From an uncultured bacterium (lineage in GTDB: Bacteria; Patescibacteriota; Gracilibacteria; Absconditabacterales; Absconditicoccaceae): a stretch of DNA of 64,000 nt. Shown piece after piece: positions 7,218 to 34,176 of this stretch; the stretch's first letter is position 1; every line of letters begins with the position of its first letter. The notes below the pieces were generated by a model. It worked only from the letters and a program-made list of their open reading frames with translations, made no database searches and was not told where the DNA came from. A program made the position numbers and the translations under genes. The DNA lies in NCBI GenBank assembly GCA_946408385.1, contig CAMJSB010000002.1, positions 117,873 through 181,872 on the forward strand. The letters are read 5' to 3'.

Positions 7218-7835
7218 ATGCTTAACGAAAAACAGCTTATAGACAAATATTGAGAGATTATCAAAGAAGAAATCAATGTAAAAGATGTAGACATTTATCA
7301 ATCTGATAAACCAATTACGAAAATATATAAACCTTTATGAGGTCAGATTTCTGCTAAGTTTGGAAAAGATACATGACAGATTATTGCAAACTGAAAACAG
7401 TGAAATGTTCGTGAAATAGATGGTTGAATTGAAGTTTTTGATAATGCATGACACACATGGAAATTGGAAGAATCTGACTATGAAGTAGTTTATGAATGAC
7501 TTGATGGAACTGATACTACAGTTGAATGAAATACAATAGTAAAATTAGACCTAGAAATCACAGATGAACTCAAAAGAGAATGAACAGCTCGTGAAATTTC
7601 TAGATTTCTCAATCAAATGAGAAAAGATGCTGATTTTAGTGTAGATGCTAGAGTAAATATGCATTACTCTTCTGATAGTGAAGATATGAAAAATATCGTT
7701 AAAGAATTCGCAGAATTTCTAAAAGAAGAAGCTTTGATTATTAATATTTCAGAATGAAATTGCGACTGAGATACACGTTCAGATATATTTGAAAGTGAAA
7801 ATGGAAATGTAAAATTCTGACTAACTGTTGCATAG
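7218..7835 (+). CDS. Stand-alone protein resembling the C-terminal (DUF5915-like) region of isoleucyl-tRNA synthetase
   Basis: VKLDLEITDELKREGTAREISRFLNQMRKDADFSVDARVNMHYSS resembles the C-terminal region of IleRS; no catalytic domain present. Confidence 0.6.
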
Positions 7836-7839
7836 CTTT

Positions 7840-8060
7840 TTGTTATTCTGAGCGATAGACAAGAATCTTAAGTGTGTTATTGAAATCCTCTGCTTGCCCA
7901 TTTTAAGGGGAAATCTCCGTAGGAGAAAGGGGTTGAGATGTAAGGTTGAGAGGTTGATAGTTATAAAATCCCTCTCGGCTTGCTTTACCATGCTTAGCGT
8001 GGCGAGTCTCCCTTTAAAAAGGGAGAACAAAAGTGATACACACAAGATTTTTATTTTGTT
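7840..8060. repeat. Dispersed repeat cluster (CATTCTGAGCG/GAATCTT-type and AAATCC...CTCCCTTTNAAAAGGGAG-type)
   Basis: ttattctgagcgatagacaagaatctt and ctccctttaaaaagggag palindrome; related sequences recur around 21.3-21.7, 23.6, 26.3, 27.5, 28.3, 29.2-29.7, 30.3, 37.1 and 51.3 kb. Confidence 0.7.
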
Positions 8061-8152
8061 TCACTCCATCTGAATGACAATTTAATAGAGATAAATATAA
8101 AAAAAGCCGTAGGATAGAGATTCTTCCCACGGTTTTTTTGAAATCTAAATAC

Positions 8153-9187
8153 TTAAATGGAAACAGCTCCCTTAATAGGACCATCATGCTCATACCCGAT
8201 GAGCTCGATGTCATCCCAAGTGAAATCCAGAATATTCTTCACATCTGGATTCAGTCGGATAGATGGCAAAGGATGTGGAGTGCGAGTCAACTGTTCATTC
8301 ACTTGATTGACAAGATTCAGATAGACGTGAGCATCTCCGAAAAAATGATTGAAACGGCCAGGCTTGCGACCAGTTACATGAGCCATTAAACACAGGAATA
8401 AAGCATCTTGAGCCGTATTATACGGCACACCCAAGAATGTATCACAGCTACGCTGATATAAGTTCAGATGGAGTATATCAGGCTCGTTTGCAAAGAACTG
8501 ATAGAAGCATGGACATGGAGGTAAAAGAGTCTTGTTTTCATCTGCAGGATTCCAGAGTGAAATGATGATGCGGCGATTCTCGGGCTTGTTCTTGATTTTA
8601 TCAAGAGCAAGCATGAGCTGATCTTTTCCTTGAATGAAAGGTGATGGTATTGGGCCATCAAATCCAAAGAAAAGGGCCACCTGAATATCGGAATCAAAAT
8701 CACTCAACTTGATCTCTCCAAACCGACGAAATTGATGTCCGTATGTCCTTCCAAGTTCACCCCATTTTTTGCAAAATTCATCATCATTGAGAATTTTCTC
8801 CTCAAATTTCCTTTTTGTTGATTTCCATTCATCAGTGTAGTCAGATTTTTGATCATCTTTCCACATGTTTGCCAAGATTTCAGTTTGACCTGTTTCCTCT
8901 AGCCATTTTTTGAATGGCCATTCCGTCCAGATGTGATTGTTGTGTTCCACCAAGAAGCGAATATTCGTATCTCCGCGAAGTTTCCAGATGAGTTCCTCAA
9001 ATACAGATTTGAGACTCATTTTCTTGGTAGTCAGAAGAGGAAAATTGTGAATTAATCCTTCCTCATCTTTTTGCATTTCACATGTGTAGTGATATACTGG
9101 TAAGGTGTAAGTTCCTGTTCCAGTACGATCACCAGTCTTCACACCATTATCTAAAATGGCCTGAAGCAACTCTAAATACTGTTTCAT
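8153..9187 (-). CDS. thyA: Thymidylate synthase
   Basis: ORF-track protein 344 aa: GDRTGTGTYTLP, NRRIIISLWNP, CPCFYQFF, YQRSCDTFLGVPYN, FFGDAHVYLNLVNQ; no TGA codons. Confidence 0.97.
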   Translation of the reverse strand: MKQYLELLQAILDNGVKTGDRTGTGTYTLPVYHYTCEMQKDEEGLIHNFPLLTTKKMSLKSVFEELIWKLRGDTNIRFLVEHNNHIWTEWPFKKWLEETGQTEILANMWKDDQKSDYTDEWKSTKRKFEEKILNDDEFCKKWGELGRTYGHQFRRFGEIKLSDFDSDIQVALFFGFDGPIPSPFIQGKDQLMLALDKIKNKPENRRIIISLWNPADENKTLLPPCPCFYQFFANEPDILHLNLYQRSCDTFLGVPYNTAQDALFLCLMAHVTGRKPGRFNHFFGDAHVYLNLVNQVNEQLTRTPHPLPSIRLNPDVKNILDFTWDDIELIGYEHDGPIKGAVSI

Positions 9188-9357
9188 AAAATTAAAAATT
9201 TTTTTTGTTTATTGTTATATAATTGTTTTATTTTTTATTTATTGTATAAATTTTTATTAGAATGTCAATTAATACTTTATTAGATGTAATTTTTGTTGAA
9301 AAATGGTTTTGTATTGATACAATTATACGACAAGTTTTATATATGTTATATTTACTA

Positions 9358-11241
9358 ATGAAAAGTATCGTTAAATATTGAGTTTTTGGTCTGTTTTTAG
9401 CATGTTTTGGTGTGATAACTCCATATACATATGCAGATTCTGGAGATAATTCAGGAGTGGATACATGAAGTATTTCTGGATGAACTACTGGGGAGACTTG
9501 ATGAGTTGTGACTACATATACTGTAAATTTTGTGACAAATGGAGGATGAACATTGGAATCTCAAGTAATTACTGGTTGAGAAAAATTGGATACATCAGCT
9601 ATATCAGTACATAGAGATGGTTTCAGTTTTTCTGGATGGTTTATAGATAGCAGTTTTAAAACATGATTTGATATTGAAAATGATGTAGTAACATCAGATT
9701 TGACATTGTATGCAAAGTGGAGAGAACATAAGATAATAGTTCGTTATCATCCTAATTGATGAAAAGATGAAAGAACAAAGGAAAATCCAGCTAGAGATCC
9801 TTTGAGATATTCAGCAGGTTCGTGTGGATCAAACTGACGAAAAGTTAAATGATGAGCTGCTGTTTGTGAACTTTTTTATACGAAAAATGATTGGAATATA
9901 TCTACAGCAGCTCCAAATTATACAACAGATGGTGCAGCTTGGTATCTTTCAAAAAGATGATATGTGTGACATGATTATCGACTTCTTTGATGAACATGAA
10001 CGAATGCAAAAAAAGTTCCAGCATCTAAAAGATTTTCGCAGAATCGAAAAATAGCTCAAGAGGTATGAATGTTGGAAGAATTTAAAGCTTGAGATATTGA
10101 GTGGGATTTGTATGCGGATTGGACACCTGTAAATTATACTTTGACATATATATGACTTGAGGATTGTACATTTGAAAATGGAGAAAATCCAGCTACTTAT
10201 ACAGTGTTGTCATGAGATATTACATTAAACAATCCATCTAAGACATGATATACATTCCTTTGACGAAGTGGAACTGATATTGAATGATTGTCTACAAATG
10301 TAACGATAACATGAGATAGTATAGGAAATAGAGCATTTGAGACTGTTTGGCAAATTAATTCGTATACAATTACATATGATATAGACTGAAACAATAAAAT
10401 TATTGTGACATGAGATTATAATACAGGTGTTGCTCAGCCACAAGAACCTCAGAGAAATTGATACAAATTCTTATGATGGGATACAGAGATTCCAGAAAAG
10501 ATGCCAGCTGAAAATATAGTTATTACTGCAAAATGGGAAAAACTATGATACAGTGGAGCATGAAGAAGAAGTTCTAGTACAGAAAAAGATGACACTAAAG
10601 ATGACTGAAAAGATAAAACAGATGAAAACAAAAAATCTGATGATAATTCAAAATCAGATGGTACAGGAAATCAGGATAAAAATTCAAGTTCATGAACTGG
10701 TAACAATTCAGAACAATCAGATTGAAAAATAGATATGGATGATTTAATGAATGTTTATATGTGGGCTCGTGATAATTGAATTACAACATGAGAAACTTTG
10801 GAAGCTGCTTTGCCTGATGGATATATTGAGAGATGAGAAATGGCAAAATTGGTTGTAAATTTTATGAATGATGTATTATGAAGAGAAGTGCCAAAAAATA
10901 TTCCTAGTAAGTGTAGTCGATGAGATAAGGAAACAGAATGGGAATCAGCTGAAGAAAAGAAGTATGCAGAACAGTCATGTGCATTATGATTGATGTGAAT
11001 TTATATGCAGAATTTCAAACCTAATAAGTTGTTGGATAGAGCTGAATTTGGAACAATTGTGTCTAGAATATTATGGTGAGAAAAATATAATATACCTAAC
11101 GCAACAAATGATAATAAATATTATGTAAAACATCTAAATGAAGTAAAAAAGGAAAATTTGATTACACAGATAGAAAATCCAGAAACAATAAAAGAATTAA
11201 GAAAATGGATATGGATTGTGTTGAAAAAAATAAAGAAATAG
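9358..11241 (+). CDS. Surface protein with InlB-type repeats and C-terminal SLH-like domain
   Basis: Signal peptide; TVNFVTNGG...FSFSGWF...LYAKW, TGYTFLG[CGA]SGTDI...NRAFETVW; C-terminal ERGEMAKLVVNFMNDVLGR...CALGLMGIYMQNFKPNKLLDRAEFGTIVSRILWGEKY. In-frame ATG also at 9262. Confidence 0.85.
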
Positions 11242-30772: not shown

Positions 30773-30800
30773 TTGCATTTGTGTCTAATATTTTTATACT
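30773..30800 (+). promoter_or_regulatory. Putative sigma70-type promoter of SLH/S-layer gene
   Basis: TTGCAT (30773-30778) N16 TATACT (30795-30800). Confidence 0.6.
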
Positions 30801-30888
30801 GAGAATTAGTTTACTGTGTGGAGACACAGAAACCCAACCCTGTTTGGTAATTTATTTGTGACTTTTTATTTTTATTCAACAAAACAAC

Positions 30889-33800
30889 ATGAACATTAAA
30901 AAATTGTTCGCAATCTTGGCTGGAGTGTCAATGCTTGCACAGACAGTTGTTCCTGCTGGAGTTTCTGCTGCTACTTACAGCGAAGAACTTCAAGAGGCTT
31001 ACGACTGGGCTTATTCAAAAGGAGTTACAACAATGTCTCCTATCGATAACGCCAACATGTATGGTGCTATCACAAGAGCCGAAATGGCTAAAATGTTATC
31101 TGTATACGCTAAAGAAGTTTTAGGTAAGACACCTGACACATCTAAGGCTTGTACATTCTCAGACATCGATTCAGTTAAAGGAGATCTTCACGATTTCATT
31201 ATTGAATCTTGTCAATTAGGTATCATGGGTCAAGGAATCACTGCATTCAGACCATATGCTACAATTACAAGAGCTGAATTCGGTACAGCTTTATCTAGAG
31301 TTTTATATGGTGATGTAAATAACGGAGGAACTCCTTTCTACGCTAAACACCTTGATGCTCTTAAAGCTGACGGAATTATGACTCAAATCGATAATCCTGA
31401 AAACAGAGATGAAATTAGAGGATACGTAATGCTTATGCTTATGAGATCTGAAAAAACATCTGGAATCGATTGTGATGATCCTGTTGTAAAATTAGCATGT
31501 TCTATGGAAACAGATGAATGTCCTGCTGCATGTAAAGAAGGAGCTAAAGAAACAGATGAAGATGGAAACGTTGTTAAATCTGGAAGTTTGTCAGTTTCTT
31601 CAAGTGCTGCTGATGATAGAAAGGTAGTTGTAGCTAGCGATGGTTTCGCAGTTTCTGATCTTGATACATTAACATTCAAGACTTCAGAAGAAGTTACACT
31701 TCAAAAAGTAGTTCTTGAAAAGTATGGATATTCAACATCTTCAGATTTAATATCTAATGTATGGTTAGAAGATGAAGATGGAAAAGAGGTATCTAACAAA
31801 GCTAAACCAAACACAAAATGATTGGTTAACTTAACTATTAAAAAAGACTATAAATCTATAGATGGAACTTTCAATGCAACTATAGTAGTTGAAACAAATA
31901 GTTGAGCTAAAGTTGGAGGAACTCTTGGATTCAAAGTTACTGATGTAAGTTCATCAGCTAAAGATGTTGATTTGGGAAATTATAAAGCTTATACATATGA
32001 TGTAGTTGCTTATGATGGAACTGAAGCAAAAGTTACAGCTAAAGGATGATCTAAAGACTACAATTATGAAGGAAAAGCTGTTGAAATTTCTAAATTCAAG
32101 ATTAAAGCTCCAGACGATTCAGCTATAAAAGTTGCTGGATTCACATTAACAAATTCTGGAAGTCTTGATATTTATGACAACATAGATGCTGAAGATGTAG
32201 AAGTTTCTATTGATGGAAAAGTTGTTAAAGCTAATATAAGTATCAATAAGTCTGAGGAAATGAGTGTTTCTCTTAAAGAAGAGTTAGAGATAGCTGCAAA
32301 GGCTCAGGTTGAGATAATTGTTTCAGCTTCATTTAATGATGACTTTGAAGATTATGGAACTTCAATTATGCTTAAGATAGAGAAACCATCTGACTTATCT
32401 GCTACAGATAAAAACAATGCTAGAATTACTGTAAATACAGAATCTGCTAAATGGGTAGAATATGTGATTAATGGAGGTAAGGTTAGAATTACTACTACTA
32501 AGCTAGGAAATGTAGATGCTTCTATCAATTCAACAGATATCCTTATAGCTTCTGGATACATTACTGTAGGAGAAGATCTTGAAAAAGGAAAACTTATAGT
32601 AACTGTAACATGAAGCGGAGAGGCTCTTGAAGCTATGAAATTAGAAATAGCTGGAGATGAATATGATGGAGAAACAAAGGATAATGGAAAAACATGGACT
32701 TTCGATAATATAGAAATTAGTGAATCTGGAAAAATTAGATTATATGTAGATATTCTTGATAAACCAGAATATGAAAATGCTACACTTCAATTCTCAATTG
32801 AAGGATGGGATAGTTTCAAATACACAAATGGAGATAAAAACTCTAAAGTTGATGTATCTGGATCATTAACAATCTCTAAACTTAACCTTAATCCTGCTGA
32901 AGGAACTTTGGTTAATAAATTATCTTCAAGTGATGATGTAGAATTCAATAATAATGAATTAAATACTGAAGTTGTATTTGATGGAACTTATAAAGCTGAC
33001 AAACAAGATATCAATCTTAATTCATTCACTATAAGCACAACTGCTTATACTGGAGTTTCAAAGATTAAATTCTACTTATATGTAGATGATATGAATAGTT
33101 CAGTTGCTGATGTTACAATTACAAAAGATTCTCTTAGCGGAGCAGATTCATTTAACGATGTTCTAGTTGAGGCTGGAAAAGAAGTTAAAGTAAAAGTTGA
33201 GGCTGAAATCGATGCTAAAGAAGCAACTGCTCCATTCAAAGTTGGTAAATTCAATGTTGTACTAGATGGAGAAGATGAAAATGATAATGTTGCTGGACAT
33301 GCAGAAAGAAAGACTGCTAACATAATGATTGTTAACCAAGGATCTGCTACTGTTGAAGAAGGAGATGTAGCTAAGAATGTTGTTCTTAGAAAAGCTAACA
33401 GCTCTACTATAGCTCAATTCTTAGTAAAACCTGATGCAGCTAACAGAGTTACTCTTGAAGAAATTAGTTTCGATCTTGCTTTCACGCCAACTGCTGGTGC
33501 TGAAGATTATGATGGAAATGTAGACTTATATGTTAAAGGATCTAAAAAGACCCTTAAGAAGAGCGGAAACTCATACGAAGCTGAATTTACTACTGATGTA
33601 GATTCTGAAGGAGTTAAAGTTACTGTTGAACTTGATGATGAATTTGATGGAGAAGTTTCTTTGACTAATCTTAAAGTAAACGACAAAGAGATTAAGAATA
33701 AGGATTTCAACAAGAAATTCGTTGAAGCTGTAGTATGGTTCGCTGATCAAAAGAGTGATGATGATAACACAACATTCAAGTTCGGAATTGATAAAAAAGG

Positions 33801-34176
33801 TTCTGATAGTGTTGAAAATGTTACATTAATCCTTGCTAATGGAGATGAGGTAGTAATTAATAATGGAAATGAACTTAAAGCTAGCACACCTTATGATGTA
33901 ACTAATAAAGCATCTCAGCAAGATGTTGTAGGTATTAAATATACTGTGAATGGTGGTACTGTAGAAACACCAGCTGTTCCATGTGAAGAAGCTGATATTA
34001 CAGCAGCTACTGAAGGTGACGCATGTTATAGTGGTACAGCATGAACTACAATAAAAACACCAGCAGTTATAGGTGGATACATAGAAATCAGTAATAATCC
34101 ATATGCTGACATGTTCAAGATTGGAATGAAAGACGATGGAGCTCAAGTTAGAGTTTCTAGATTAAAGAACTCTTAG
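30889..34176 (+). CDS. SLH-domain surface protein, candidate major S-layer protein (about 1095 aa)
   Basis: Signal peptide MNIKKLFAILAGVSMLAQTVVPAGVSA; SLH-like EELQEAYDWAYSKGVTTMSPIDNANMYGAITRAEMAKMLSVYA...ACTFSDI...CQLGIMGQGITAFRPYATITRAEFGTALSRVLYGD; low-complexity beta-rich remainder; only a few TGA codons. Confidence 0.88.

Follow-up and report, generated by a model that had tools for sequence, protein, structure and literature searches.

Codon reassignment has often been argued to cut a lineage off from gene exchange. The genomes of the Absconditabacterales offer a natural test of such code isolation, with markers at the level of single codons. Because incoming genes carry two reassigned signals, namely TGA and the codons CGA and CGG (CGR), alleles that are unadapted, partly adapted, or native can be distinguished, dated, and matched to function. 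CGA and CGG encode Trp in Absconditabacteria (PMC8629427), and phages compatible with code 11 have been predicted for these bacteria (PMC10746230). According to PMC8080830, a relative is thought to take up DNA of its host via ComEC/ComEA and carries genes obtained by horizontal gene transfer (HGT). Transfer of thyA into Patescibacteria is described in PMC12455944.

Here, we describe a thyA gene coding for a thymidylate synthase of 344 amino acids at positions 8153..9187 (minus strand) of the window, by which we mean the whole stretch of 64,000 nucleotides that was analyzed. It is very probable that thyA genes of standard-code donors have repeatedly replaced the resident thyA in place in a recoded host.

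Codon usage and composition of the window thyA

The encoded protein matches Pfam family Thymidylat_synt (PF00303) over its whole length (positions 1-265 of 266) with 284 bits (E=1e-84), the cut-off of the family being 24.3 bits. A sequence-only reading had proposed that the gene is an immigrant from a donor in which TGA is a stop codon and CGN encodes Arg, as it has about 21 Gly codons and no TGA. The exact count is 0 TGA in 21 Gly codons (GGA 11, GGT 7, GGC 2, and GGG 1) versus 63.2% TGA among the Gly codons of the host genome (G000; 577 genes called in code 25 on 839 kb, which include the window). At the host's rate, the chance of such a count is P=7.6e-10. The comparison of codon usage and GC with the genome likewise marks the gene as foreign. 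Its GC (0.41) and its GC3 both lie at the 99.8th percentile of 524 host genes and its codon score at the 0.2nd. The proposed immigrant origin is supported by four independent signals: the absence of TGA, the foreign composition and codon choice, the position of CGR in Arg columns, and the conflict of gene tree and divergence with the hosts. The recurrence and the exchange at one site described below went beyond the reach of that reading.

Decoding of TGA and CGA/CGG in the host

TGA is read as Gly in this host, as seen from its share of 63% of the Gly codons and from the code-25 open reading frames on both sides of thyA. In a comparison of native genes of G000 with those of five relatives, 76 exchanges of CGA/CGG with TGG were counted against two with Arg codons, both exceptions coming from one pair at 46% identity. 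In thyA and the thymidine kinase gene tdk, by contrast, CGA/CGG swap with Arg codons 12 times and never with TGG (p=3e-13 versus native genes), which indicates that the host reads CGR as Trp, whereas the CGR codons of thyA originally stood for Arg. Across the order, CGA/CGG likewise lie in Trp columns of TGA-bearing ThyA and in Arg columns of TGA-free ThyA. The host's tRNA-UCG and tRNA-CCG carry G73 and A/G1:U72 and have no A20, which are the criteria for Trp in such tRNAs given in PMC8629427. Codon exchange and tRNA features together indicate decoding of CGA/CGG as Trp in this host. At single residues, CGA131 of SufS stands at an invariant Trp column and CGA174 of QueA at a conserved Arg, the latter being the single contrary case in the host. 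Alignments of ArgRS and QueA were also tried as a test of CGA decoding and gave a mixed outcome; the codon-exchange test was used instead. No release factor with a PCRF domain, RF1 included, was found in the 839 kb read of G000, and the tRNA loci that were read did not include tRNA-Gly(UCA); both are probably gaps of the assembly, which is 88.6% complete.

Arginine positions and predicted function

The window ThyA has CGA at residue 311 (8255..8257, minus strand) and CGG at residue 155 (8723..8725, minus strand), exactly where the sequence-only reading had placed them (8257-8255 and 8725-8723). Residue 155 is Arg-like in a variable column. Residue 311 had been called usually Lys/Arg, which is roughly right for this variable position (K 12, E 7, unambiguous Arg 3, and Trp 1 among relatives); in the alignment, Arg is encoded there by CGT and AGG in the sister alleles of G040 and G039. 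The predicted unadapted substitutions apply to these two variable positions and go no further, as the conserved Arg residues are all encoded by CGC, CGT, or AGG. Since the gene also ends in TAA rather than TGA, it would be expressible in the recoded host, where Arg155 and Arg311 alone, both at tolerant positions, would become Trp.

The catalytic Cys225 is present along with R205/R206 (CGC CGC), R246 (CGT), D249, N257, H287, and Y289, so the catalytic Cys, the phosphate-binding Arg, the dUMP-selecting Asn, and the Asp/His/Tyr classes are all matched, none by CGA or CGG. These conserved residues suggest that the protein may be an active enzyme. At residues 225-227 (8507-8515, minus strand), PCPC[FL]YQ takes the place of the canonical PCH after the catalytic Cys, both in the window ThyA and in the five ThyA closest to it.

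CGR makes up 14% of the Arg codons in immigrant ThyA versus 26% in standard-code references (p=6e-4), which either a filter or base composition could explain. In the standard-code ThyA of three other genomes, CGA/CGG fall on Arg positions that are invariant or nearly so (G035, L181:14361-15185; G001, copy G001b, L172:10862-11656; and G010, L178:3342-4172), in the first two at position 126. In contrast, CGR is decoded as Trp in the native genes of these hosts or of related ones. In G035, where no other thymidylate-synthase gene was found, the gene carries CGA at R126, the catalytic-site position in E. coli, and CGG at an invariant Arg. Strict Trp decoding is expected to ruin this enzyme, which would then depend on dual decoding for its function. 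A reading in which the chromosomal thyA site stays permanently open to the exchange of standard-code genes, with CGA/CGG partly still read as Arg there, seems rather unlikely to us.

The ends of imported genes display the expected cost of the code difference directly, as C-terminal read-through. In G039, G012, G015, and G016, TGA stands exactly after the last ThyA residue, and code-25 translation runs on for 26, 43, 16, and 26 residues, respectively. TGA is the stop codon of 7 of the 40 complete standard-code reference thyA genes; the terminal TGA of the four relatives is the donor's stop, now a sense codon.

In genus g1 (eight genomes), four genomes have ThyA and all have SHMT, which is TGA-bearing, yet neither DHFR_1 nor RibD_C gave a match that would account for dihydrofolate recycling. 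A RibD_C reductase replacing the missing DHFR was thus ruled out.

Probable exchange of thyA at a conserved locus

In G000 and its congeners G035, G039, and G040, thyA and one and the same DUF5915 gene (7218..7835, plus strand) run toward each other; this native left neighbor with 13 TGA is conserved and anchors the locus. The right neighbor (9262..11241, plus strand), common to G039, is also native (43 TGA) and codes for a surface protein with Listeria-Bacteroides repeats (Flg_new). Between the convergent genes lies a hairpin between A/T runs (8100..8139, unstranded), which is kept in all four of these genomes, also in G035 with its unrelated thyA, and is likely a two-way terminator. On the other side, G000, G040, G039, and G035 all retain the part of the thyA upstream leader (9188..9261, minus strand) that adjoins the ATG (AAATTTTTAATTTATG-like).

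The locus of G035 holds a TGA-free thyA of 264 amino acids with only 36% identity, i.e., an unrelated allele. Nucleotide identity between G035 and G040 is 0.83-1.0 in DUF5915 and near the thyA stop, about 0.5 inside thyA, and 0.7-0.8 in the start codon region and leader. Non-orthologous thyA genes thus lie between the same conserved neighbors (G035 versus G040, G000, and G039), as in displacement in situ. In genus g4, different TGA-free thyA genes (G010/G003 versus G007) occupy one spot between the native thyA and ackA. As a standard-code thyA is found here and an unrelated standard-code allele at the same spot in a relative, thyA has repeatedly crossed the genetic-code boundary. ThyX was considered as an occupant of the locus in G036 and G038 and was rejected, since ThyX of both is located elsewhere.

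The proposed course of events starts with a thyA from a donor with the standard code (TGA as stop, CGN as Arg), which would have been taken up by an Absconditabacteria-type host with TGA as Gly and CGA/CGG as Trp. Entry may have occurred by DNA uptake or phage, and homologous flanks may have served as the mechanism of exchange. The incoming gene would then have replaced the older thyA coding sequence, while the start region and the terminator on either side stayed those of the host. This would be a recurrent event, since the standard-code thyA at this locus differ among congeners in their divergence or are wholly unrelated.

The window also contains a lineage-specific insert with short dispersed repeats (7836..8080, unstranded; about 245 bp), of which pieces of 28-41 bp are found again elsewhere in the genome. 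The congeners are without it at this locus; it is absent from G040 and G035, and G039 has its own, shorter insert. Repeats are therefore present as had been noted, but calling thyA flanked by them was too strong, because the insert lies on one side only. For this reason, and since congeners do without it, the repeat is an unlikely transfer vehicle.

ThyA across the order and its source

Of the 49 genomes of the order, 29 have ThyA. Two kinds of copies occur, TGA-bearing ones in which CGR stands for Trp, frequently next to folA, and TGA-free ones in which CGR stands for Arg. In many genomes, TGA-free ThyA of several lineages stand beside the native TGA-bearing ThyA or replace it. The one-contig genome G001 has both kinds, its TGA-free and its TGA-bearing folA-thyA pairs lying about 28 kb apart. 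On the gene tree, the TGA-free ThyA require six label changes, at least three of which are forced by well-supported branches. TGA-free ThyA of G042 and G004 are placed among the native copies, the CGR of G042 lying in Trp columns; the TGA count by itself is thus not diagnostic.

The window gene belongs to a long-type clade of six members from four genera (G000, G039, G026b, G040, G012, and G007). Vertical grouping with TGA-using relatives, the outcome that would have contradicted the sequence-only reading, was not seen, as this clade is wholly TGA-free and TGA-bearing ThyA, including those of the sister family f157, fall outside it. The f157 proteins, the closest TGA-bearing homologues, were examined as vertical relatives and rejected, with 42-44% identity and a position outside the clade.

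A scan of GTDB r220 gave no match above 45-47% except in three recoded genomes. Samples of the phylum and class, phages, plasmids, and IMG/VR gave nothing above this level either, and no donor was found. The standard-code origin is thus suggested by the code signature and not by a named donor. Less probably, a standard-code phage or plasmid of these hosts serves as the reservoir and spreads thyA and tdk among them. All known members of the long-type clade come from recoded hosts, of four genera, and yet are written in the standard code, thyA is common on phages, and the phages predicted in PMC10746230 would fit such a role. On the other hand, no phage or viral contig exceeded about 47% identity, and phage genes were not recognised beside thyA in the neighborhoods listed.

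A single import into the ancestor of the genus, followed by vertical descent in which TGA has not yet been gained, with G035 alone replaced later, would account for the related alleles at the same locus in G000, G039, and G040 and for their conserved flanks. This is unlikely, as the divergence of thyA at fourfold sites is greater than that of native genes of the hosts, both between G000 and G039 (46/74 versus 352/902, p=1e-4) and between G000 and G040 (37/71 versus 723/1881, p=0.025). In addition, the allele of G026 from another genus interrupts the clade and is less diverged from G000 than native genes are (31/78 versus 181/305, p=0.002). If the allele dated back to the ancestor of G000, G039, and G040, the probability that 0 of 30 GGA codons became TGA at the native exchange rate would be about 0.0025; judged by this GGA test alone, vertical residence without TGA gain in this subclade is unlikely. 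Elsewhere, thyA at the same locus also diverges more at fourfold sites than native genes (G045-G046, 0.60 versus 0.48; G010-G003, 0.70 versus 0.52).

TGA-poor and TGA-free genes of the hosts

Repeated replacement also has to be weighed against a native thyA under high expression or other selection against TGA, since native expressed genes do shun this codon (6/84 in an S-layer-like gene, 5/40 in RuBisCO, 15/62 in PPDK, and 0/10 in L7/L12) and a FabH-like gene of G045 and G046 is TGA-free with host-like divergence. This alternative is very improbable. TGA-poor expressed host genes (L7/L12, RpoC, PPDK, S-layer-like, and RuBisCO) have low to median GC3 and codon scores that are median or better; in the S-layer-like, RuBisCO, PPDK, and L7/L12 genes, codon choice is host-like, with CGA/CGG nearly absent. 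The window thyA, in contrast, has foreign GC3 and codon score and carries CGR at Arg sites, and native ThyA of relatives have up to 17 TGA. The notion that a standard-code contaminant fragment was joined to a recoded contig, prompted by the mostly metagenomic assemblies and the 22 contigs of the window genome, is barely credible given that three further assemblies of the genus have thyA in this position, that it lies between native genes on a 182-kb contig, and that the one-contig genome G001 shows the same phenomenon.

The S-layer-like gene (30781-34176, plus strand, 1131 amino acids) has host-like codon choice, and its avoidance of TGA goes with presumed high expression, not with foreign origin. 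For the FabH-like gene (named from its N-terminal sequence only; L174:16556-17632 and L176:3607-4689; divergence 0.42 versus 0.48), either long residence without TGA gain or repeated exchange may apply. The tdk gene of G000 (G000:C1:125392-125964, L118) has 0 TGA in 16 Gly codons, host-like GC3, and CGR at Arg sites, one at a column where all other compared Tdk have Arg or CGR. Among the other Tdk aligned from the order, 6 of 10 are TGA-free, plus one more outside the close group of G000. Further candidate standard-code immigrants in G000 are a PIN-PhoH gene (G000:C1:1008-2342, 0/20 TGA), a PmbA/TldD-like gene (G000:C1:151842-153584, 0/34), and an NDK gene (G000:C4:49387-49806, 0/9), all with foreign GC3.

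Comparison with known systems

These observations say that a code difference slows or filters the acquisition of genes and is no full barrier, even for a core enzyme of DNA precursor synthesis. As a protein, the window ThyA resembles the long-insert form of PF00303 in Lactobacillus casei and Enterococcus, matching the family over its whole length with the catalytic residues in place, but it differs from that form in its identity of about 40%, in having PCPC[FL]YQ instead of PCH, and in residing in a genome with another code. The locus resembles xenologous gene displacement in situ, with unrelated coding sequences between conserved flanks (G035 versus G040, G000, and G039); it differs in that displacement recurs serially at a single locus and takes place across a code boundary, as marked by both TGA and CGA/CGG.

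HGT into Patescibacteria as described in PMC12455944 concerns the same gene, thyA, and the 126 HGT genes of Vampirococcus (PMC8080830) concern the same lineage, with UGA as Gly, as recipient. In the accessible parts of both sources, code-mismatch signatures, fossil TGA stops, and same-site exchange are not described. The code-11-compatible phages of code-25 bacteria (PMC10746230) are alike in that TGA-free standard-code genes are predicted to be used in recoded hosts; those, however, are phage genomes matched by CRISPR spacers, whereas here a resident chromosomal housekeeping gene is concerned. Same-site exchange across a code boundary was not reported in the literature searched, subscription papers and preprints being outside its scope. 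Transfer of thyA into CPR bacteria is already known, and what is new is its serial exchange at the same site across a code boundary.
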